From positions 1 through 43,212 of the forward strand of contig ONMZ01000013.1 in the NCBI GenBank assembly GCA_900319075.1: a stretch of DNA of 43,212 nucleotides, written 5' to 3'. The notes below the pieces were generated by a model, which did not search any database, was not told the origin of the DNA, and was given only the letters and a program-made list of their open reading frames with translations. This DNA is from an uncultured Eubacteriales bacterium. Lineage in GTDB: Bacteria; Bacillota; Clostridia; Oscillospirales; Ruminococcaceae. Positions 2,838-34,707 of the stretch are shown piece by piece. Each line of letters begins with the position of its first letter. Position 1 is the stretch's first letter. The position numbers and the translations under genes were made by a program.

Positions 2838-2871
2838 CGTCCCTGAAAAGGTAACTTCGGGGACGCTTTTA
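2838..2871 (+). terminator. Terminator after the EIIA-like gene
   Basis: A 10-bp stem CGTCCCTGAA / TTCGGGGACG (one G-U pair) is followed by CTTTTAATTT. Confidence 0.8.
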
Positions 2872-2975: not shown

Positions 2976-2984
2976 TGATATAAT
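2976..2984 (+). promoter_or_regulatory. Extended -10 promoter of the polyamine operon
   Basis: TGATATAAT gives an extended -10 (TGnTATAAT) at 2976-2984. The -35 is poor (TGTACT at 2956-2961), which fits an extended -10 promoter. The start site would fall near 2991, about 50 nt before speD. Confidence 0.65.
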
Positions 2985-3042: not shown

Positions 3043-3855
3043 ATGATAGGGTTGGAGCAGAAGCTTTCACTGTATGGATTCAATAATCTTACGAAAACTC
3101 TTAGCTTTAATATCTATGATGTATGCTATGCAAAAACGGAAAGAGAACAAAAGGGCTATATAGCCTATATCGACGAACAGTATAATTCCGAGCGCCTTAC
3201 AAAGATACTGTGTGATGTTACGGAAATGATAGGCGCAAGAGTGCTGAATATATCAAAGCAGGACTATGAGCCTCAGGGTGCATCGGTCAATGTTCTTATT
3301 GCCGAAAAAGCCTTGGATGAGGACTCCATCGACCCATCCTGCAACCAGGGAGTGCTGCCTGAGGCAAAACCCAGAACGGTAGCCGCACATCTTGATAAGA
3401 GTCATGTTACAGTTCATACCTTCCCTGAGTACCACCCGGATAACGCTATTTCCACATTCAGAGTGGATATAGATGTTTCCACCTGCGGTATGATATCACC
3501 GCTGAACGCCCTGAATTATCTTATAAGCAGCTTTGATTCGGATATTATAACTATTGACTACCGTGTCAGAGGATTTACAAGGGACGTTCTTGGGAAAAAG
3601 TTTTTTATAGATCATAATATCACATCTATACAGGACTATATCGACAACGACACCTTGACCAGGTACGATGCTATCGACGTTAATATGTACCAGTCAAATA
3701 TATTCCATACAAAGCTTCTTATAAAGGATATAGAACTGCAAAACTATCTTTTCAAGACCGATGCTTTGGAGCTTACACCAAAGCAAAGACTGGATATAAC
3801 CGATGCTTTGAGGCGTGAAATGATAGAAATATACAGCGGTATGAATATATATTAA
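3043..3855 (+). CDS. speD: S-adenosylmethionine decarboxylase proenzyme, E. coli-type
   Basis: Makes decarboxylated SAM, the aminopropyl donor for spermidine synthase. The sequence follows the long bacterial class 1A SpeD closely: [38 protein letters not shown] and [16 protein letters not shown]. The self-cleavage site is DKSH. Its Ser (residue 120 counted from the chosen start) becomes the pyruvoyl cofactor when the chain splits into beta and alpha subunits. I chose the ATG at 3043 (270 aa) because GGAGAGG lies 5-8 nt upstream and because E. coli SpeD begins at this point; an in-frame GTG-type start at 3013 would add ten unrelated residues. It is the first gene of the polyamine operon, 22 bp before the decarboxylase gene. 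Confidence 0.95.
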
Positions 3856-3877
3856 AACAGCAGGATCGTGATGAAGT

Positions 3878-5326
3878 TTGGAGCTTACACAGAGCAATGC
3901 GCCGGTATATGAGGCGCTGACAAAGCACATGAAAAACCGTGTGGTAAGGCTTGACGTTCCGGGTCATAAGGGAGGCAGGATGAACAAGCCTCTTCGTGAT
4001 TTTCTTGGGGAGCAGTGCCTGCGGTGCGATGTGAATTCAATGAAAAATCTTGATAACCTCTGTCACCCCACCGGGGTCATAAAGCAGGCTGAAAGCCTTG
4101 CGGCAGAGGCTTTTGGCGCTCATAATGCCTTTTTTATAGTCAACGGCACCACCGCCGCTGTGCAGACTATGGTTTTTACAGCCTGCAAGGCGGGGGAGAA
4201 GATAATTATGCCCAGAAACGTCCACAGAAGCGCAATAAATGCCCTTGTTGTCTGCGGAGCTGTGCCTGTATACGTAAACCCCGGGACTGACAAAAAGCTT
4301 GGAATACCCCTGGGTATGTCGGTTGAGGACGTTGAAAAAGCAATTGAAGAAAACCCCGACGCAAAAGCCGTGCTGGTGAATAACCCTACCTATTACGGCA
4401 TATGTTCGGATATCAGGAGGATCGTGGACATCGCCCACAAGCACGGAATGCTGGTGCTTGCCGACGAAGCTCACGGCACTCATTTTTATTTTGGAGATAA
4501 CCTGCCGATGAACGCAATGGAGGCAGGTGCGGATATGGCTGCGGTGTCGATCCATAAAACGGGAGGCAGCCTTACCCAGTCGTCACTTCTCCTTTGCGGA
4601 AAAAATATCTCCGAGGGCTATGTGCGGCAGATAATCAACCTTACCCAGACCACAAGCGGCTCGTATCTGCTTATGGTATCTCTTGATATGGCAAGGCGAA
4701 ATCTTGCCCTCAACGGTAAGGATATGTTTGCAAAGGCGTGTGATTATGTTAGCTACGCAAGGGGAGAGATAAACAAGATAGGCGGTTATTACGCTTTCGG
4801 GCAGGATCTTGTGAACGGAAAGGACATATTTGCATTTGACGATACAAAGCTTTCGGTGCATACAAGGGCTGTGGGTCTTGCAGGTGTCGAGGTGTACGAT
4901 CTTTTGCGTGACGAGTACGATATACAGATAGAGTTCGGCGACATCGGAAATATCCTTGCGATAGTTTCCGCAGGGGACAGAGAGCTTGAGATAGAGCGCT
5001 TCATTTCAGCGCTCAGCGAGATAAAAAGGCTTTACCATAAAGACCCGGCAGGACTTTTTGATCACGAGTATATCAACCCCATAGTCAGAGTTACACCACA
5101 AAAAGCCTTTTATAGCGAAAAAAAGGCTGTACCCGTAAAGGACAGCTGCGGCAAGGTGTGCGCAGAGTTTGTAATGTGCTACCCGCCGGGGATACCGATA
5201 CTTGCCCCGGGGGAAATGATAACAACGGACATAATCAACTATATAAATTACTGTAAAGAAAAGGGCTGCCTTATGACAGGCACAGAGGATCTTGAGATAA
5301 ACTATATAAACGTCATTGACGAGTAG
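3878..5326 (+). CDS. speA: Orn/Lys/Arg decarboxylase, probable arginine decarboxylase
   Basis: PLP-dependent fold-I (aminotransferase-like) decarboxylase of 482 aa, the short Bacillus SpeA/YaaO type without the large wing domain. Visible features are VPGHKGG near residue 28, LADEAHG with the cofactor-binding Asp196, and SIHKTGGSLTQSS with Lys227 as the Schiff-base lysine. A C-terminal Orn/Lys/Arg-decarboxylase domain carries CYPPGIPILAPGE. The TTG start fits the family N-terminus (APVYEALTKHMK). The earlier ATG at 3871 is out of frame. Substrate cannot be read from the sequence. Arginine is inferred because an agmatinase-type gene follows in the same operon, giving arginine to agmatine to putrescine. 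Lysine or ornithine are alternatives. Confidence 0.88.
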   Translation: MELTQSNAPVYEALTKHMKNRVVRLDVPGHKGGRMNKPLRDFLGEQCLRCDVNSMKNLDNLCHPTGVIKQAESLAAEAFGAHNAFFIVNGTTAAVQTMVFTACKAGEKIIMPRNVHRSAINALVVCGAVPVYVNPGTDKKLGIPLGMSVEDVEKAIEENPDAKAVLVNNPTYYGICSDIRRIVDIAHKHGMLVLADEAHGTHFYFGDNLPMNAMEAGADMAAVSIHKTGGSLTQSSLLLCGKNISEGYVRQIINLTQTTSGSYLLMVSLDMARRNLALNGKDMFAKACDYVSYARGEINKIGGYYAFGQDLVNGKDIFAFDDTKLSVHTRAVGLAGVEVYDLLRDEYDIQIEFGDIGNILAIVSAGDRELEIERFISALSEIKRLYHKDPAGLFDHEYINPIVRVTPQKAFYSEKKAVPVKDSCGKVCAEFVMCYPPGIPILAPGEMITTDIINYINYCKEKGCLMTGTEDLEINYINVIDE

Positions 5327-5355
5327 AACAAAGAGCAGCTTTTGGAGATAAAACA

Positions 5356-5805
5356 ATGGATAATGATATGTTTGAGCAGGAAGATGAGACTCTGGCGAAA
5401 GAGCGTAAAACAGGCTGCGGCTGCGGCTGCTTAACTGCGGTTGTTATTGTGATTGTTTTAATAATGTCTGTTCCTTTGCTAATTCATCTGATAGACAGCT
5501 GGCCGATAACAGTTGACAGTAAGAGCAATAATGGCTGGAAAGTTGAACTTCAAGCAATCGGAAGCCCGATTTGGCCGTTTGGTCCGCAGGACGGGCGAGT
5601 TTGGCTTAAACTTGGTTCGTTTAAAATATGCAGTGAGGATTTCGTGCTGCACAACGACGGCAAGGGTATGGACGAGTATAACTGGAAGGTCGATTGGAAA
5701 GACGACAGAGTGCTGATAACGATAATCGGAGAGGAACAGGCGGACGAACACATCAGTCTTTACTATGACGGAAAGACTGAAAGTGACACCGGAACAGTGT
5801 TTTAG
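5356..5805 (+). CDS. Unknown single-pass membrane protein in the polyamine operon
   Basis: I do not recognise this 149-aa protein. The first 20 residues are acidic/charged. A Cys/Gly cluster (TGCGCGC, residues 19-25) comes just before one membrane helix (about 26-48). The remaining 100 residues would lie outside and are rich in Trp, Asp and Gly, with alternating hydrophobic residues that suggest a beta-sandwich. The start has GGAG 8 nt upstream. It sits between the decarboxylase (29-bp gap) and speE (30-bp gap) and should be co-transcribed with them. The Cys-rich stretch next to the helix could be a lipidation or metal site; this is speculative. No function is assigned. Confidence 0.8.
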   Translation: MDNDMFEQEDETLAKERKTGCGCGCLTAVVIVIVLIMSVPLLIHLIDSWPITVDSKSNNGWKVELQAIGSPIWPFGPQDGRVWLKLGSFKICSEDFVLHNDGKGMDEYNWKVDWKDDRVLITIIGEEQADEHISLYYDGKTESDTGTVF

Positions 5806-5835
5806 CACAATAATGCAATGAAAGGAGAACCTACC

Positions 5836-6684
5836 ATGGACTTATGGTTTACCGAAAAGCACACTGATGATGTGAATTTCACGATAAAAGTTAAAAAGCA
5901 GCTGTACAGCGGCAAAAGCTATTACCAGCAGATCGACGTATTTGATACCTACGAGTTCGGCAGAGTGCTGGTGCTGGACGGCTTTATTATGCTCACCGAA
6001 AAGGACGAGTATATCTATCACGAAATGGTCACTGCCGTGCCTATGGCGGTCAATCCCGAGATAAAGAGCGTGCTCGTTATCGGCGCAGGTGACGGCGGAA
6101 CGATACGGGAGCTGACACGCTATGATTCAATAGAAAATATTGATATGGTGGAGATAGACCGGCAGGTCGTTGAGGTATGCAAGGAATATTTGCCCCAGAC
6201 CGCCTGCAAATTCGATGATGAGCGTGTGCACCTTTTCTTTGAGGACGGGCTTAAATTTGTCCGCCGCAAGGAGAATGAATACGACCTTATAATCGTAGAT
6301 TCCACCGATCCTTTCGGACCCGGCGAGGGGCTTTTCACAAAGGAGTTTTACGGCAACTGCTCAAAGGCGCTGAGTGATAAGGGCATACTTATCAACCAGC
6401 ACGAAAGCACATATTACGATTCCTATGTGGATATGGTAAAGCGCACCCATAAGCGCATCAGCAGTGCTTTACCTGTATCTATGGTCTATCAGGCGCATAT
6501 CCCGACATACCCCTCGGGGCATTGGCTCTTTGGCTTTGCATCAAAGAATCTCCACCCCGTATATGATCTCAAAGCGCAGGAGTGGGAGAATTTCGGCATA
6601 GACACAAAATACTATAACACCGAGCTGCATAAGGGCTGCTTTGCCCTGCCAAACTACGTAAAGGAGATACTCGCCGATGAATAA
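5836..6684 (+). CDS. speE: Spermidine synthase (polyamine aminopropyltransferase)
   Basis: Transfers the aminopropyl group of decarboxylated SAM to putrescine. The 282-aa protein has the standard layout: an N-terminal beta domain (YYQQIDVFDTYEFGRVLVLDG) and a Rossmann methyltransferase-like core with VIGAGDGGTIRE (SAM-binding loop). Then come the acidic MVEID ribose contact, the catalytic DSTDPFGPGEGLF gate segment, and a conserved end (PTYPSGHWLFGFASK). I took the ATG at 5836 because AAAGGAG lies 11 nt upstream and the protein then begins like its family; the ATG at 5818 precedes the SD. The end overlaps speB by 8 nt, implying translational coupling. Confidence 0.95.
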   Translation: MDLWFTEKHTDDVNFTIKVKKQLYSGKSYYQQIDVFDTYEFGRVLVLDGFIMLTEKDEYIYHEMVTAVPMAVNPEIKSVLVIGAGDGGTIRELTRYDSIENIDMVEIDRQVVEVCKEYLPQTACKFDDERVHLFFEDGLKFVRRKENEYDLIIVDSTDPFGPGEGLFTKEFYGNCSKALSDKGILINQHESTYYDSYVDMVKRTHKRISSALPVSMVYQAHIPTYPSGHWLFGFASKNLHPVYDLKAQEWENFGIDTKYYNTELHKGCFALPNYVKEILADE

Positions 6685-7522
6685 GAACGTGTTTACCTTT
6701 ATCGGCTGCGACTGCGAGTACGATGAGGCGAAGATCGTGCTTTTCGGAGCGCCCTTTGACTCAACCACATCTTTTCGTCCCGGCACACGCTTTGCGTCAA
6801 GTGCGATACGAAATGAGAGCTTCGGCATCGAGACGTTTTCCCCCTATCAGGATAAGGATCTGCTCGACTGCAAGGTCTTTGACAGCGGCGATCTGGAGCT
6901 GCCCTTCGGCAGTCCTGAGCAGGCTTTAAAGGATATTGAGGGCACAGCAAGTCAGATACTTGACGACGGAAAGATACCCTTTATGATCGGCGGAGAGCAT
7001 CTTGTAACCCTGGGCGAGTTCAGAGCCGTTGCGAAAAAGTACCCCGATGTGCATATCATACACTTTGATGCGCACTGCGACCTGCGAGATGATTACCTGG
7101 GCGTAAAGCTTTCACATGCCTGCGTGCTGAGAAGATGTCACGATATAGTCGGTGACGGACGCATCTTCCAGTTTGGTATCAGAAGCGGAGACAGAGACGA
7201 ATTTGAGTTCGCAAAAACGCACACCTGTCTGCACCGCTTTGACCTTGAAACACTTGATGAGGTGGTGGAAAAACTCAAAGGAAAGCCGGTGTATTTCACC
7301 CTTGACCTTGATGTTCTCGACCCGTCTGAGTTCCCCGGAACAGGTACGCCCGAGGCGGGCGGCGTGAGCTTCAAAGAGCTTCACAAGGCGATAATGCTGC
7401 TTTCAAAGCTCAACATTGTAGGACTTGATATGAACGAGCTTTCGCCTGTTTACGATCCGTCGGGCAGGAGCACAGCCCTTGCCTGCAAGCTGCTGCGAGA
7501 GATACTGCTTGCGATACTGTGA
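6677..7522 (+). CDS. speB: Agmatinase (ureohydrolase family)
   Basis: Hydrolyses agmatine to putrescine and urea. The manganese-binding residues of the arginase/agmatinase fold are all present: His108 (GGEHLV), DAHCD (Asp131, His133, Asp135) and LDLDVLDP (Asp210, Asp212). The usual GTGTPEAGG substrate loop follows. Length (281 aa) is typical of agmatinase. It overlaps speE by 8 nt. With the decarboxylase and speE it completes arginine to putrescine to spermidine. Formiminoglutamase or proclavaminate-type activities are possible for the fold, but the operon makes agmatinase by far the best call. Confidence 0.92.
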   Translation: MNKNVFTFIGCDCEYDEAKIVLFGAPFDSTTSFRPGTRFASSAIRNESFGIETFSPYQDKDLLDCKVFDSGDLELPFGSPEQALKDIEGTASQILDDGKIPFMIGGEHLVTLGEFRAVAKKYPDVHIIHFDAHCDLRDDYLGVKLSHACVLRRCHDIVGDGRIFQFGIRSGDRDEFEFAKTHTCLHRFDLETLDEVVEKLKGKPVYFTLDLDVLDPSEFPGTGTPEAGGVSFKELHKAIMLLSKLNIVGLDMNELSPVYDPSGRSTALACKLLREILLAIL

Positions 7523-7536
7523 GGAGATGAACGCAA

Positions 7537-7920
7537 ATGTGCGACGACCTTGGTTTTATTTTCCCAGAAGATGATTCTTGGATAGATGCACTTATTCTGG
7601 CATTTGCAATAAGTGCTGTTCTGATTCCTGTCGGCGTAATCACCATTTTTGTGTTGAATATAAAAAAACAGCGTACCAAGGCAATGTTTGCAGGCTTTGG
7701 TACAGCGGTAGTTTGCTTTATCATAGCTTTGATATTTAAACTCTTTTTCGTGGGAATGTCGGGCGTAGGCTTTCTGATATATGCCGCTACTGTCAATTCA
7801 CATGGGTGTGCTAAAGATGATAATAGCGATAAAGTTCAGGAAACAAGTGAAAGCGTTGTTGAAGAAAAAAATAATAGTTATAAACTCGAAGATAAAAATG
7901 ATGACTGGGATTTCTTATGA
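7537..7920 (+). CDS. Unknown two-helix membrane protein in the polyamine operon
   Basis: I do not recognise this 127-aa protein. An acidic start (about 16 residues) is followed by two membrane helices (about 19-41 and 50-84, the second stretch perhaps containing two short helices). The soluble tail of roughly 40 residues is rich in Asp, Glu, Lys and Ser. The ATG follows GAGGAG. It lies 14 bp after speB and 34 bp before the dehydrogenase gene, so it is an operon member. A link to polyamine movement or sensing is inferred from position only. Confidence 0.75.
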   Translation: MCDDLGFIFPEDDSWIDALILAFAISAVLIPVGVITIFVLNIKKQRTKAMFAGFGTAVVCFIIALIFKLFFVGMSGVGFLIYAATVNSHGCAKDDNSDKVQETSESVVEEKNNSYKLEDKNDDWDFL

Positions 7921-7954
7921 TGATATTTAATTAAACTGAAAGGAATGATGAATA

Positions 7955-9157
7955 ATGGGAAGAGCATTGATAATTGGTGCCGGCGGAGTTGCAGGTGTGG
8001 TTATACACAAGTGCTGCCAGAACAGCGAGGTCTTTGAGGAGATATGCATCGCAAGCCGCACTAAATCAAAGTGCGACAAGTTCAAAGCTGAGCTTGAAGG
8101 AAAGACAAAGACTAAGATAACTACTGCACAGGTGGACGCTGACAACGTTCCCGAGCTTGTCAAGCTTATGAAAGAGTACAAGCCGGATATCTGCATAAAT
8201 GTTGCACTGCCGTATCAGGATCTGCACATCATGGATGCTTGCCTTGAATGTAAGGTGGACTACGTTGATACCGCAAACTATGAGCCTGAGGACACGGCTA
8301 AGTTTGAGTATTCCTGGCAGTGGGCTTACAGAGAGCGCTTTGAAAAGGCAGGCATAACAGCGCTGCTCGGTTCGGGCTTTGACCCCGGTGTTACAGGCGT
8401 TTTCTGTGCATACGCTCAGAAGCACTACTTTGACGAGATAAACTATATCGACATTCTCGACTGCAACGGCGGCGACCACGGCTATCCGTTTGCAACTAAT
8501 TTTAACCCTGAGATAAACATTCGTGAGGTCTCCGCTAAAGGCTCATACATTCAGGACGGCAAGTGGGTCGAGACCGAGCCTATGGAGATCAAGAGAGTTT
8601 ACAACTTTGACCAGGTGGGCGAAAAGGATATGTACCTTTTGCACCACGAGGAGCTTGAATCTCTGGCGCTGAACATCAAGGGCATCAAGCGCATCAGATT
8701 CTTCATGACCTTCGGACAGAGCTATCTGACCCACCTCAAATGCCTTGAAAATGTGGGTATGACCTCTATCGAGCCTATCGACTTTGAGGGCAAGAAGATA
8801 GTTCCGCTTCAGTTCTTAAAGGCTGTTCTGCCCGATCCTGCAAGCCTTGGTCCGAGAACAAAGGGCAAGACCAACATTGGCTGCATCTGCCAGGGAAAAA
8901 AGGACGGCAAGGACGTTAAATACTACGTTTACAACGTTTGCGATCACCAGGAATGTTACAAAGAGGTCGGCTCCCAGGCTATCAGCTACACAACAGGTGT
9001 TCCTGCAATGATCGGTGCAATGATGGTTATGACAGGCAAGTGGAAAAAGCCGGGCGTTTACAACATTGAAGAGTTTGATCCCGATCCGTTCATGGAAGCT
9101 CTTAACAAGTGGGGTTTGCCGTGGAAAGAAAACTTTGACCCGGTGCTCGTAGACTGA
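7955..9157 (+). CDS. Carboxynorspermidine/carboxyspermidine dehydrogenase (saccharopine dehydrogenase family)
   Basis: NADPH-dependent enzyme that condenses a diamine or polyamine with aspartate semialdehyde to give carboxynorspermidine, carboxyspermidine or a larger carboxy-polyamine. The 400-aa chain begins with a Rossmann dinucleotide loop (RALIIGAGGVAGVV). It continues with the saccharopine-reductase-like segments NVALPYQDLHIMDACL, VDYVDTANYEP and LLGSGFDPGVTGVF typical of CANSDH/CASDH, and ends in a dimerisation/substrate domain (IGAMMVMTGKWKKPGVYNIEEF). Pairing with nspC in the same operon separates it from lysine-pathway saccharopine dehydrogenases. Whether the acceptor is diaminopropane, putrescine or spermidine cannot be read from the sequence. 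AAAGGA precedes the ATG. Confidence 0.9.
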   Translation: MGRALIIGAGGVAGVVIHKCCQNSEVFEEICIASRTKSKCDKFKAELEGKTKTKITTAQVDADNVPELVKLMKEYKPDICINVALPYQDLHIMDACLECKVDYVDTANYEPEDTAKFEYSWQWAYRERFEKAGITALLGSGFDPGVTGVFCAYAQKHYFDEINYIDILDCNGGDHGYPFATNFNPEINIREVSAKGSYIQDGKWVETEPMEIKRVYNFDQVGEKDMYLLHHEELESLALNIKGIKRIRFFMTFGQSYLTHLKCLENVGMTSIEPIDFEGKKIVPLQFLKAVLPDPASLGPRTKGKTNIGCICQGKKDGKDVKYYVYNVCDHQECYKEVGSQAISYTTGVPAMIGAMMVMTGKWKKPGVYNIEEFDPDPFMEALNKWGLPWKENFDPVLVD

Positions 9158-9168
9158 CAGGTGAAATA

Positions 9169-9438
9169 ATGGCAAGAATAAGACGTAAAAACGGCAGACG
9201 CAGACTGCTGATAATGCTTGTTGTGGTGCTGCTCTTTGCATGGTACCTGGCAGTGGGCGTAATAATGTCATATATGAAAATATCTATGCTCCCAAAGATA
9301 TTTGCCCTTACGCTGCCGTCGTTTTTTATGGGTGTGGCGGTCACGCTTCTGGTGCTGGATATACGCTACGGCACACATCTGAAACGGCGTAGGAAAGAAA
9401 GAGAAAGCGGTGATGAAAATGCTGATAATGATCGATGA
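9169..9438 (+). CDS. Unknown small membrane protein, basic at both ends
   Basis: This 89-aa protein is not recognised. An Arg/Lys-rich start (residues 2-12) is followed by two membrane helices (about 13-34 and 43-66) and a basic-then-acidic tail. The positive ends suggest both termini are cytoplasmic. SD AGGTGA precedes the ATG. It starts 11 bp after the dehydrogenase gene, and its last codons overlap the start of the barstar-like gene by about 26 nt, so the two are probably translationally coupled. Confidence 0.75.
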   Translation: MARIRRKNGRRRLLIMLVVVLLFAWYLAVGVIMSYMKISMLPKIFALTLPSFFMGVAVTLLVLDIRYGTHLKRRRKERESGDENADNDR

Positions 9439-9697
9439 TGTACAGTTTGAAAGCAGGGAAAGGTTCTTTGACTATATCAGCAAGGCGCTGGGCTGCGGCG
9501 AAGGGAAAATAAACTCTGTGTCAAAGCTTTTTGATGTGCTTTGCGATTTTGAAGATGAAGCAGAGGTCACATTCTACGACACGGACGAGATAAGTGATGA
9601 AATGAAGTCCTTTGCCGAGGAGGTACTCGCTGCATTTATGAATGCAAAAAACACCAACGAAAAGCTTTCCGTTAAATTTGAAAAAACAACGGTTTAG
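9413..9697 (+). CDS. Barstar-like protein without a visible barnase partner
   Basis: This 94-aa acidic protein has the order of barstar (RNase inhibitor) family elements: MIDDVQFESRERFFDYISKAL, a Gly-rich turn, SVSKLFDVLCDF (compare the NLDALWDCL helix of barstar), a strand EVTFYD, then a long helix and a final strand LSVKFEK. The match is by pattern only and is weaker than in true barstar, because the Tyr/Gly/Asn before the LDAL helix are not kept. Possible starts are GTG 9410, ATG 9413 and ATG 9419. No ribonuclease gene is adjacent. It lies inside the polyamine operon, 9 bp before nspC. Confidence 0.6.
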   Translation: MKMLIMIDDVQFESRERFFDYISKALGCGEGKINSVSKLFDVLCDFEDEAEVTFYDTDEISDEMKSFAEEVLAAFMNAKNTNEKLSVKFEKTTV

Positions 9698-9706
9698 GGA
9701 GAAAAG

Positions 9707-10837
9707 ATGTTTGATATAAACAAAGTTAAAACGCCTTGTTACGTTATCAGCGAGGCGGCACTTCAAAAAAATACCCGGATACTTGACGGTGTGATGAAAC
9801 GCACCGGGTGCAGGATACTGCTGGCGCAAAAGGCGTTTTCAAACTATGCTGTGTATCCTCTTTTGTCAAAGACACTTTGCGGAACAACTGCCAGCGGTCT
9901 TTACGAGGCAAAGCTGGGCAGGGAAGAATTTGGCGGCGAGGTGCACGTTTACAGCCCGGCGTATACAGAGCATGATATGGACGAGCTTGTGAAAATAGCA
10001 GACCATATTGTTTTCAACAGCTTTTCACAGTGGGAAAAGCACCGTGATATCATTAGAAAAAGCGAGAGAAAAATATCCTGCGGACTGCGCTGCAACCCTG
10101 AGTATTCCGAGATAGAAACTGATATTTATAACCCTTGCTTTAAAAATTCAAGGCTTGGCATAACCCTTGATAATTTCGACGAAAGTGAGCTTGAAGGCAT
10201 TGAAGGACTGCATTTTCACACAATGTGTGAGCAGGGCGCAGATGTGCTTGAGCGCACCATACCCCATATCGAGGAGAAATTCGGCAAATATCTTGGGCAG
10301 ATGAAATGGGTAAACCTCGGCGGAGGGCACCACATAACCAAAGAGGGATACGATCTTGAAAAGCTCGAAAAGTGCGTGAGATATTTGCAGGAAAAGTACG
10401 GTGTTACGGTGTACCTTGAACCGGGTGAGGCTGTTGCCCTCAATGCAGGCTGGCTTGTTGCGACAGTTCTTGATACGTTCAAAAATGGCATGGATCTTGC
10501 CATAGTTGATACCTCGGCAGCCTGTCATATGCCAGATGTGCTTGAAATGCCGTACCGTCCCATGATAATCGGATCGGGGGAAGCAGGTGAAAAGGCATAT
10601 ACCTACCGTCTTGGGGGACCTACCTGCCTTGCAGGGGATATTATCGGTGATTATTCCTTTGATGCGCCTCTTAAAGAGGGCGACAGGCTTGTTTTCACCG
10701 ATATGGCTATCTACACGACTGTAAAGAACAATACCTTCAACGGTATGCCCCTTCCGAGCATTTATGTTGAAAAGACAGACGGTAGTATTGAGCTTGTGCG
10801 TGAGTTTGGATATAACGATTTTAAACAAAGACTGTAA
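9707..10837 (+). CDS. nspC: Carboxynorspermidine decarboxylase
   Basis: PLP-dependent fold-III (alanine-racemase-like) decarboxylase that converts carboxy(nor)spermidine to (nor)spermidine, the second step of the aspartate-semialdehyde route. In the 376 aa, Lys42 in LLAQKAFS is the Schiff-base lysine. GLHFHTMCEQ, the phosphate-binding WVNLGGGHHIT, LEPGEAVALNAG and the C-terminal DTSAACHMPDVLE (with the catalytic-site Cys) are characteristic of NspC/CANSDC rather than of lysine or diaminopimelate decarboxylase. GGGAG lies upstream of the ATG. It is the last gene of the polyamine operon, followed by a terminator. Confidence 0.94.
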   Translation: MFDINKVKTPCYVISEAALQKNTRILDGVMKRTGCRILLAQKAFSNYAVYPLLSKTLCGTTASGLYEAKLGREEFGGEVHVYSPAYTEHDMDELVKIADHIVFNSFSQWEKHRDIIRKSERKISCGLRCNPEYSEIETDIYNPCFKNSRLGITLDNFDESELEGIEGLHFHTMCEQGADVLERTIPHIEEKFGKYLGQMKWVNLGGGHHITKEGYDLEKLEKCVRYLQEKYGVTVYLEPGEAVALNAGWLVATVLDTFKNGMDLAIVDTSAACHMPDVLEMPYRPMIIGSGEAGEKAYTYRLGGPTCLAGDIIGDYSFDAPLKEGDRLVFTDMAIYTTVKNNTFNGMPLPSIYVEKTDGSIELVREFGYNDFKQRL

Positions 10838-33677: not shown

Positions 33678-33759
33678 GCGGGTGTGGTGAAATTGGCATA
33701 CACGGCAGTTTTAGGTGCTGCTTCCGAGAGGAGTGCAGGTTCAAGTCCTGTCACCCGCA
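33678..33759 (+). tRNA. tRNA-Leu (anticodon UAG)
   Basis: Class II tRNA, 82 nt. Acceptor arms GCGGGTG / CACCCGC with discriminator A, D-loop with TTGGCATA, and anticodon stem GCAGT/GCTGC around loop TTTAGGT (anticodon at 33712-33714). There is a variable arm of the leucine type (CTTCCGAGAGGAG), and the T-arm GCAGG-TTCAAGT-CCTGT. The 3' CCA is not encoded. It decodes CUA and other CUN codons. Confidence 0.95.
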
Positions 33760-34599: not shown

Positions 34600-34617
34600 G
34601 AATGCAGACAATTTGAT

Positions 34618-34677
34618 ATGGGAATGATGTTCTCCCCTGGGAAACCTAAACCGCTTATTCAAGCTGATGACTTCTGC
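34618..34677 (+). promoter_or_regulatory. Fluoride riboswitch aptamer (crcB motif)
   Basis: First stem-loop GGGAATGATGTTCTCCC, then AAACCGC, a small stem CTT/AAG, and the 3' conserved CTGATGACTTCTGC. This matches the fluoride aptamer layout GGGxGATGxxxxCCC, AAACyGC, stem, GCTGATGrCxxCT. Pseudoknot pairing is possible between GATGTT (loop) and GACTTC (3' part), with one mismatch. The linker before AAAC is longer than in the crystallised Thermotoga RNA. Confidence 0.87.
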
Positions 34678-34707
34678 GTTTTACGCAATAGTTATCGGCT
34701 CTTTTTT
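34662..34707 (+). terminator. Riboswitch-controlled intrinsic terminator
   Basis: An 11-bp stem, AGCTGATGACT / AGTTATCGGCT (two G-U pairs), with an inner TGCG/ACGCA hairpin is followed by six T. Its 5' arm is the CTGATGACT part of the aptamer, so aptamer folding with fluoride should block the terminator and switch the gene on. Confidence 0.85.

Follow-up and report, generated by a model that had tools for sequence, protein, structure and literature searches.

Why would a bacterium carry two complete sets of aminopropyl-transferring enzymes in one operon, and do they make the same triamine twice or act in series towards a longer polyamine? The question is raised by a 43,212-nucleotide stretch of DNA from an uncultured Eubacteriales bacterium (contig ONMZ01000013.1; the whole stretch is called the window below). 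Its plus strand between positions 3043 and 10837 carries, in this order, speD, a short OKR-type decarboxylase gene, speE, speB, the gene of a CASDH-type (carboxyspermidine dehydrogenase) enzyme, and nspC. A first-pass annotation had named these six genes; all were found on the plus strand where it had placed them, and scores against curated models back their identities (Table 1). Its view that a single, probable operon houses both aminopropyl routes in full is borne out by gene identities, order and spacing. By gene content, the operon belongs to a hybrid pathway published in 2025. We consider it probable that the window holds, in a Ruminococcus, the hybrid spermine operon described before in Clostridium leptum; for Ruminococcus we infer the enzyme specificities and the presence of spermine in the cell. 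As in the C. leptum type of hybrid, the genome encodes an S-adenosylmethionine (AdoMet) decarboxylase, an aminopropyltransferase, CASDH and the carboxyspermidine decarboxylase CASDC, and order and spacing place them in one operon with a putative arginine decarboxylase and an agmatine ureohydrolase.

Predicted route from agmatine to spermine

The published evidence is cited here from excerpts of the papers. The legend of Fig. 1B in PMC10413350 (2023) gives a C. leptum operon whose genes and gene order match those found in the window, and a figure legend in PMC8503589 lists speA, speB, speD, speE and casdh in clusters of Firmicutes. According to PMC11999265 (2025), where the enzymes were studied in Escherichia coli, the CASDH/CASDC pair of C. 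leptum builds N1-aminopropylagmatine from agmatine, giving spermidine. Compared with the Agrobacterium pair, it yielded roughly half as much spermidine and about 150 times as much N1-aminopropylagmatine. The excerpts report no spermine or thermospermine from the C. leptum pair, whereas C. leptum SpeE made spermine, and the hybrid pathway is offered there as a source of gut-bacterial spermine.

We carried this model over to the window because of the gene content and order, the 64% identity (238/370) of its NspC to the solved C. leptum enzyme (PDB 9eaf; PMC11866407), and the agmatine-type gene set. The transfer presupposes a short-form CASDH in C. leptum, or else that the two length forms described below act alike. 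In the proposed pathway, the OKR-type decarboxylase would convert arginine to agmatine, which the dehydrogenase would couple with aspartate semialdehyde at the expense of NADPH. NspC would decarboxylate the product to N1-aminopropylagmatine, and SpeB would strip urea from the latter to leave spermidine. SpeD would make decarboxylated S-adenosylmethionine, with which SpeE would add a second aminopropyl group to give spermine; SpeE itself may also form some aminopropylagmatine or spermidine. The OKR-type enzyme is most likely the arginine decarboxylase SpeA, with a presumed specificity for arginine. Likewise, the dehydrogenase and NspC are predicted to be a carboxyaminopropylagmatine dehydrogenase and decarboxylase, respectively, SpeB is predicted to act on N1-aminopropylagmatine as well as on agmatine, and SpeE is a predicted spermine synthase.

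The host assembly, of which the window is contig 41, measures 2.26 Mb and is 86.65% complete, and the missing 13% limits all gene absences reported for this genome. Within it, no match was obtained to agmatine deiminase (PF04371; 5 of 14 control genomes positive) or to PF00282 (8 of 14 control genomes positive), and operon speB was the only member of the arginase family (PF00491). A ureohydrolase in the absence of matches to these two families is the gene context that bears on agmatine as the substrate of CASDH/CASDC. The genome holds one full aminopropyltransferase: besides operon speE, PF01564 gave one weak match (36 bits), an open reading frame (ORF) without the N-terminal PF17284 and, by eye, without a GGGD-type motif. 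PF01276 matched the operon decarboxylase and one YaaO-like paralogue elsewhere, whose adjoining ORF we take to be YaaQ. The operon decarboxylase is located among polyamine genes and not beside tmk/yaaQ, the placement of the non-polyamine YaaO type.

Co-occurrence of the two routes and competing explanations

Both routes were counted across sampled genomes. In the host's family (119 genomes), 58 had CASDH and SpeE, none had CASDH only, one had SpeE only (G033, 97% complete) and 60 had neither. In the host's order (295 genomes, scored by NspC instead of CASDH), 88 had both, three had NspC only (G183, G209 and G370; 62, 90 and 72% complete), six had SpeE only (G145, G150, G168, G196, G313 and G392; 90, 76, 60, 94, 87 and 100% complete) and 198 had neither. 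The two samples overlap in some genomes, and the counts are uncorrected for relatedness, so Fisher values computed from them cannot be read as probabilities. Best SpeE matches with one internal stop codon were counted as present (9 of 59 in the family, 7 of 94 in the order), and the matches in G116 (27% identity) and G061 (28%) and the NspC matches with E > 1e-40 (35 of 126) as absent. The hybrid is the rule and not an oddity in the sampled order, where one route is seldom present without the other. The premise of the first-pass annotation that SpeD/SpeE and CASDH/NspC are alternatives does not hold there. These counts suggest that both halves travel together across the sampled order, and that Ruminococcus and many of its relatives may be spermine makers. 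G033 and G392 are natural exceptions with SpeE and no CASDH/NspC match; the SpeE match of G392 contains one internal stop codon.

Gene order was compared in 80 named loci retained among the matches listed, of which 50 were well flanked (at least 7.5 kb upstream and at least 3.5 kb downstream). speE was present in 55 of the 80 loci and in 33 of the 50. In 23 of the 50 well-flanked loci, all six genes lay on one strand and were arranged as in the window; the order is therefore not due to chance. The 17 well-flanked loci without speE comprised ten with CASDH-nspC (by record title nine Bacilli; one Selenomonas) and seven with CASDH alone, the latter in assemblies titled Ruminococcus, Oscillospiraceae or Clostridia. 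The full order was found in 11 of 20 picked family loci (ten per CASDH length form), and five of the 20 lacked SpeE beside CASDH and had it elsewhere in their genomes. Seven well-flanked loci (L056, L065, L066, L072, L077, L095 and L096) contained ADC, speE and CASDH while speB had no match there; in L095 and L096 the speD match was missing as well. Among the ORFs after nspC in L066, L072 and L096, no agmatine deiminase was recognised by eye, with no domain search run.

Redundancy would be a different answer to the question: both routes would only turn putrescine into spermidine, with SpeB as an agmatinase, under different supplies of methionine or aspartate semialdehyde. We regard this as unlikely. 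Window SpeB does score as an agmatinase, which speaks for redundancy, as do the use of putrescine by C. leptum CASDH in vitro and the spermidine made by C. leptum SpeE. Several points weigh against a hybrid spermine pathway. Purified C. leptum CASDH takes putrescine about as well as diaminopropane (74 and 71 per M per s), and the authors of that work considered putrescine its likely substrate, agmatine being outside their assay (PMC10413350). C. leptum SpeE also made spermidine (PMC11999265). Direct sequence comparison with C. leptum is confined to NspC. Alanine-racemase-fold ornithine decarboxylase was not searched with a model of its own, in an incomplete assembly, and nine genomes of the order sample break the pairing. 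Window SpeE (motifs GAGDGG, MVEID and VDSTDP) does fit, in favour of the hybrid, a published spermine-synthase pattern (Asp, Gly two positions on, Glu), but this pattern is ambiguous in its own source: excerpts of PMC11107197 treat Asp-x-Gly with Glu as a mark of spermine synthases in one place, yet state in others that the motifs do not tell these from spermidine synthases. We therefore dropped the motifs as proof of specificity. However, the co-occurrence pattern speaks against interchangeable routes, because one of the two should often be lost alone, and the spermine made by C. leptum SpeE likewise does not fit redundancy.

The first-pass annotation had itself placed the two routes in series towards spermine, which is probably right, but its main example, with spermidine coming from SpeE and the second group then attached by the carboxy route, has the order reversed. 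The products reported for C. leptum imply a start from agmatine, with spermidine from CASDH/CASDC and spermine from SpeE, a case covered by its aside 'or the reverse'. The order of the main example is very improbable for the window. It would resemble Agrobacterium, Paracoccus and Brucella, whose CASDH/CASDC convert spermidine to spermine and thermospermine; however, these bacteria reportedly have neither SpeD nor SpeE and employ ornithine decarboxylase, and the C. leptum pair, in the same excerpts of PMC11999265, yielded neither product. The annotation also allowed for a mix of triamines, with the carboxy route making norspermidine from diaminopropane. The models are named after carboxynorspermidine enzymes and diaminopropane is an in vitro substrate of C. 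leptum CASDH (PMC10413350), but the genome gave no match to a PF00282 decarboxylase and the dehydrogenase scores only 407.4 bits against the 800-bit cut-off of NF043000 (carboxynorspermidine synthase), so that we hold this for extremely unlikely. A stronger form of the hybrid reading is also very improbable: in the host's order, coupling of the two routes would be obligate, with the carboxy route supplying aminopropylagmatine or spermidine for a SpeE acting chiefly as spermine synthase and neither half being retained by itself, and small membrane ORFs would link the Ruminococcus pathway with the membrane or with export.

Layout of the operon and its variants

The features of the locus are collected in Table 1. 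With the four small ORFs included, the distances from speD to nspC are 22, 29, 12, -8, 14, 34, 11, -26 and 9 bases. The six genes probably form a single operon: the spacing is compatible with a single transcript because all gaps and overlaps are below 40 bases once the small ORFs are counted. Up to the end of nspC, the plus strand shows just one other hairpin match of similar stem length (5417-5444); its T tail is poor, and a small ORF encloses it. Internal promoters may exist within the operon, since a consensus scan found promoter-like matches there. An inverted repeat, AGTTTGTAAAACT, at 2942-2954 upstream of the speD -10 box is a possible operator; it is intact in three of five aligned leaders (the window, L032 and L033).

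Table 1. Features of the polyamine locus in the window.
Feature	Position	Strand	Evidence
Terminator-like hairpin, 5' of operon	2838-2865	+	Consensus match only
Extended -10 promoter box TGATATAAT (contains TATAAT), 5' of speD	2976-2984	+	TATAAT kept in 5/5 aligned leaders
speD, S-adenosylmethionine decarboxylase, E. coli class	3043-3855	+	TIGR03331, 433 bits (cut-off 255.8)
AAT-fold OKR-type decarboxylase, short (482 aa), TTG start	3878-5326	+	PF01276, 249.4 bits (cut-off 27)
Small membrane ORF, one hydrophobic stretch	5356-5805	+	No Pfam family above cut-off
speE, aminopropyltransferase	5818-6684	+	TIGR00417, 320.7 bits (cut-off 249.55)
speB, ureohydrolase, agmatinase family	6677-7522	+	TIGR01230, 281.1 bits (cut-off 174.3)
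Small membrane ORF	7537-7920	+	Open reading frame
CASDH-type dehydrogenase, short form, 400 aa	7955-9157	+	PF16653, PF03435; PDB relatives 4rl6, 4ina, 8deb, 8h4z
Small membrane ORF, 89 aa	9169-9438	+	Also in L031-L034 among searched loci
Small soluble ORF, weakly Barstar-like	9413-9697	+	PF01337, E 0.0017, 18.7 bits (under cut-off 23.4)
nspC, carboxy(nor)spermidine decarboxylase family	9707-10837	+	TIGR01047, 515.6 bits (cut-off 409.05)

SpeD has the motif DKSHVTVHT at residue 118, and its frame is open from an alternative TTG start further upstream (3013) as well. The possibility that this SpeD has become an ornithine or arginine decarboxylase was rejected because its score lies far above the cut-off of the E. 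coli-class model. The dehydrogenase carries His-Glu-Glu in HHEEL at 230, and its solved relative 8deb is labelled carboxyspermidine dehydrogenase. CASDH occurs in two length forms (400 and 419 aa) in the same operon slot of one bacterial family, as seen by comparing the window with L133, L134, L137, L139, L140 and L142; they differ by a 19-residue insertion after NYEPED. Excerpts of PMC10413350 note an extra helix in 4rl6. We dropped the insertion as a functional marker because both forms occupy the same slot. Among 17 loci found with C. leptum NspC, CASDH was of the short form in 14 and of the long form in one, and two were not read by the pattern. The best match of C. leptum NspC in the 295 order genomes was 73% identical. 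No identical match was found in three families, with 87 genomes (none at E 1e-185), 250 sampled genomes (best 72% identity) and four genomes (73%).

As in the window, the same gaps between the polyamine genes of several Ruminococcus loci (L032-L035, L037 and L063) contain small ORFs that change rapidly, several of which have hydrophobic stretches. Judging by sequence, the window comes from a Ruminococcus near R. sp. FC2018; its dehydrogenase is 98-99% identical, among the matches listed, to those of R. sp. FC2018, one uncultured Ruminococcus and one uncultured Clostridia assembly. An Rfam scan of the window gave no match inside the operon; elsewhere it gave a tRNA (33678-33759) and a fluoride riboswitch (RF01734, 50.1 bits, 34611-34683). 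A phage search returned a single unannotated match (25.6%).

Comparison with known pathways

These results widen the published C. leptum finding and add no new mechanism. New relative to that work are the genus, the almost constant pairing of the two routes across the sampled order and the small ORFs within the operon. Among the titles listed for Ruminococcus polyamines and for the hybrid pathway, none was on the operon of this genus; a CASDC of Ruminococcus flavefaciens is already compared in PMC11866407.

The closest known system is that of C. leptum, with the same six genes in one operon. The Ruminococcus operon departs from it by its inserted small ORFs; the products of the C. leptum enzymes were shown in E. 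coli, whereas the Ruminococcus specificities are predictions. The Vibrio-type carboxynorspermidine pathway (NF043000) has homologous enzymes, but the window dehydrogenase falls well under the curated score and a PF00282 decarboxylase match is missing from the genome. A homologous dehydrogenase and decarboxylase also serve the spermine route of Agrobacterium and Paracoccus that uses aspartate semialdehyde only; in contrast to the window, that route starts from putrescine and proceeds without SpeD and SpeE (excerpts of PMC11999265). The same paper cites work on the carboxyaminopropylagmatine route of Synechocystis, in which a dehydrogenase, a decarboxylase and a ureohydrolase act from agmatine, as we predict for the window. 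The window operon differs from it in joining these enzymes with SpeD and SpeE.

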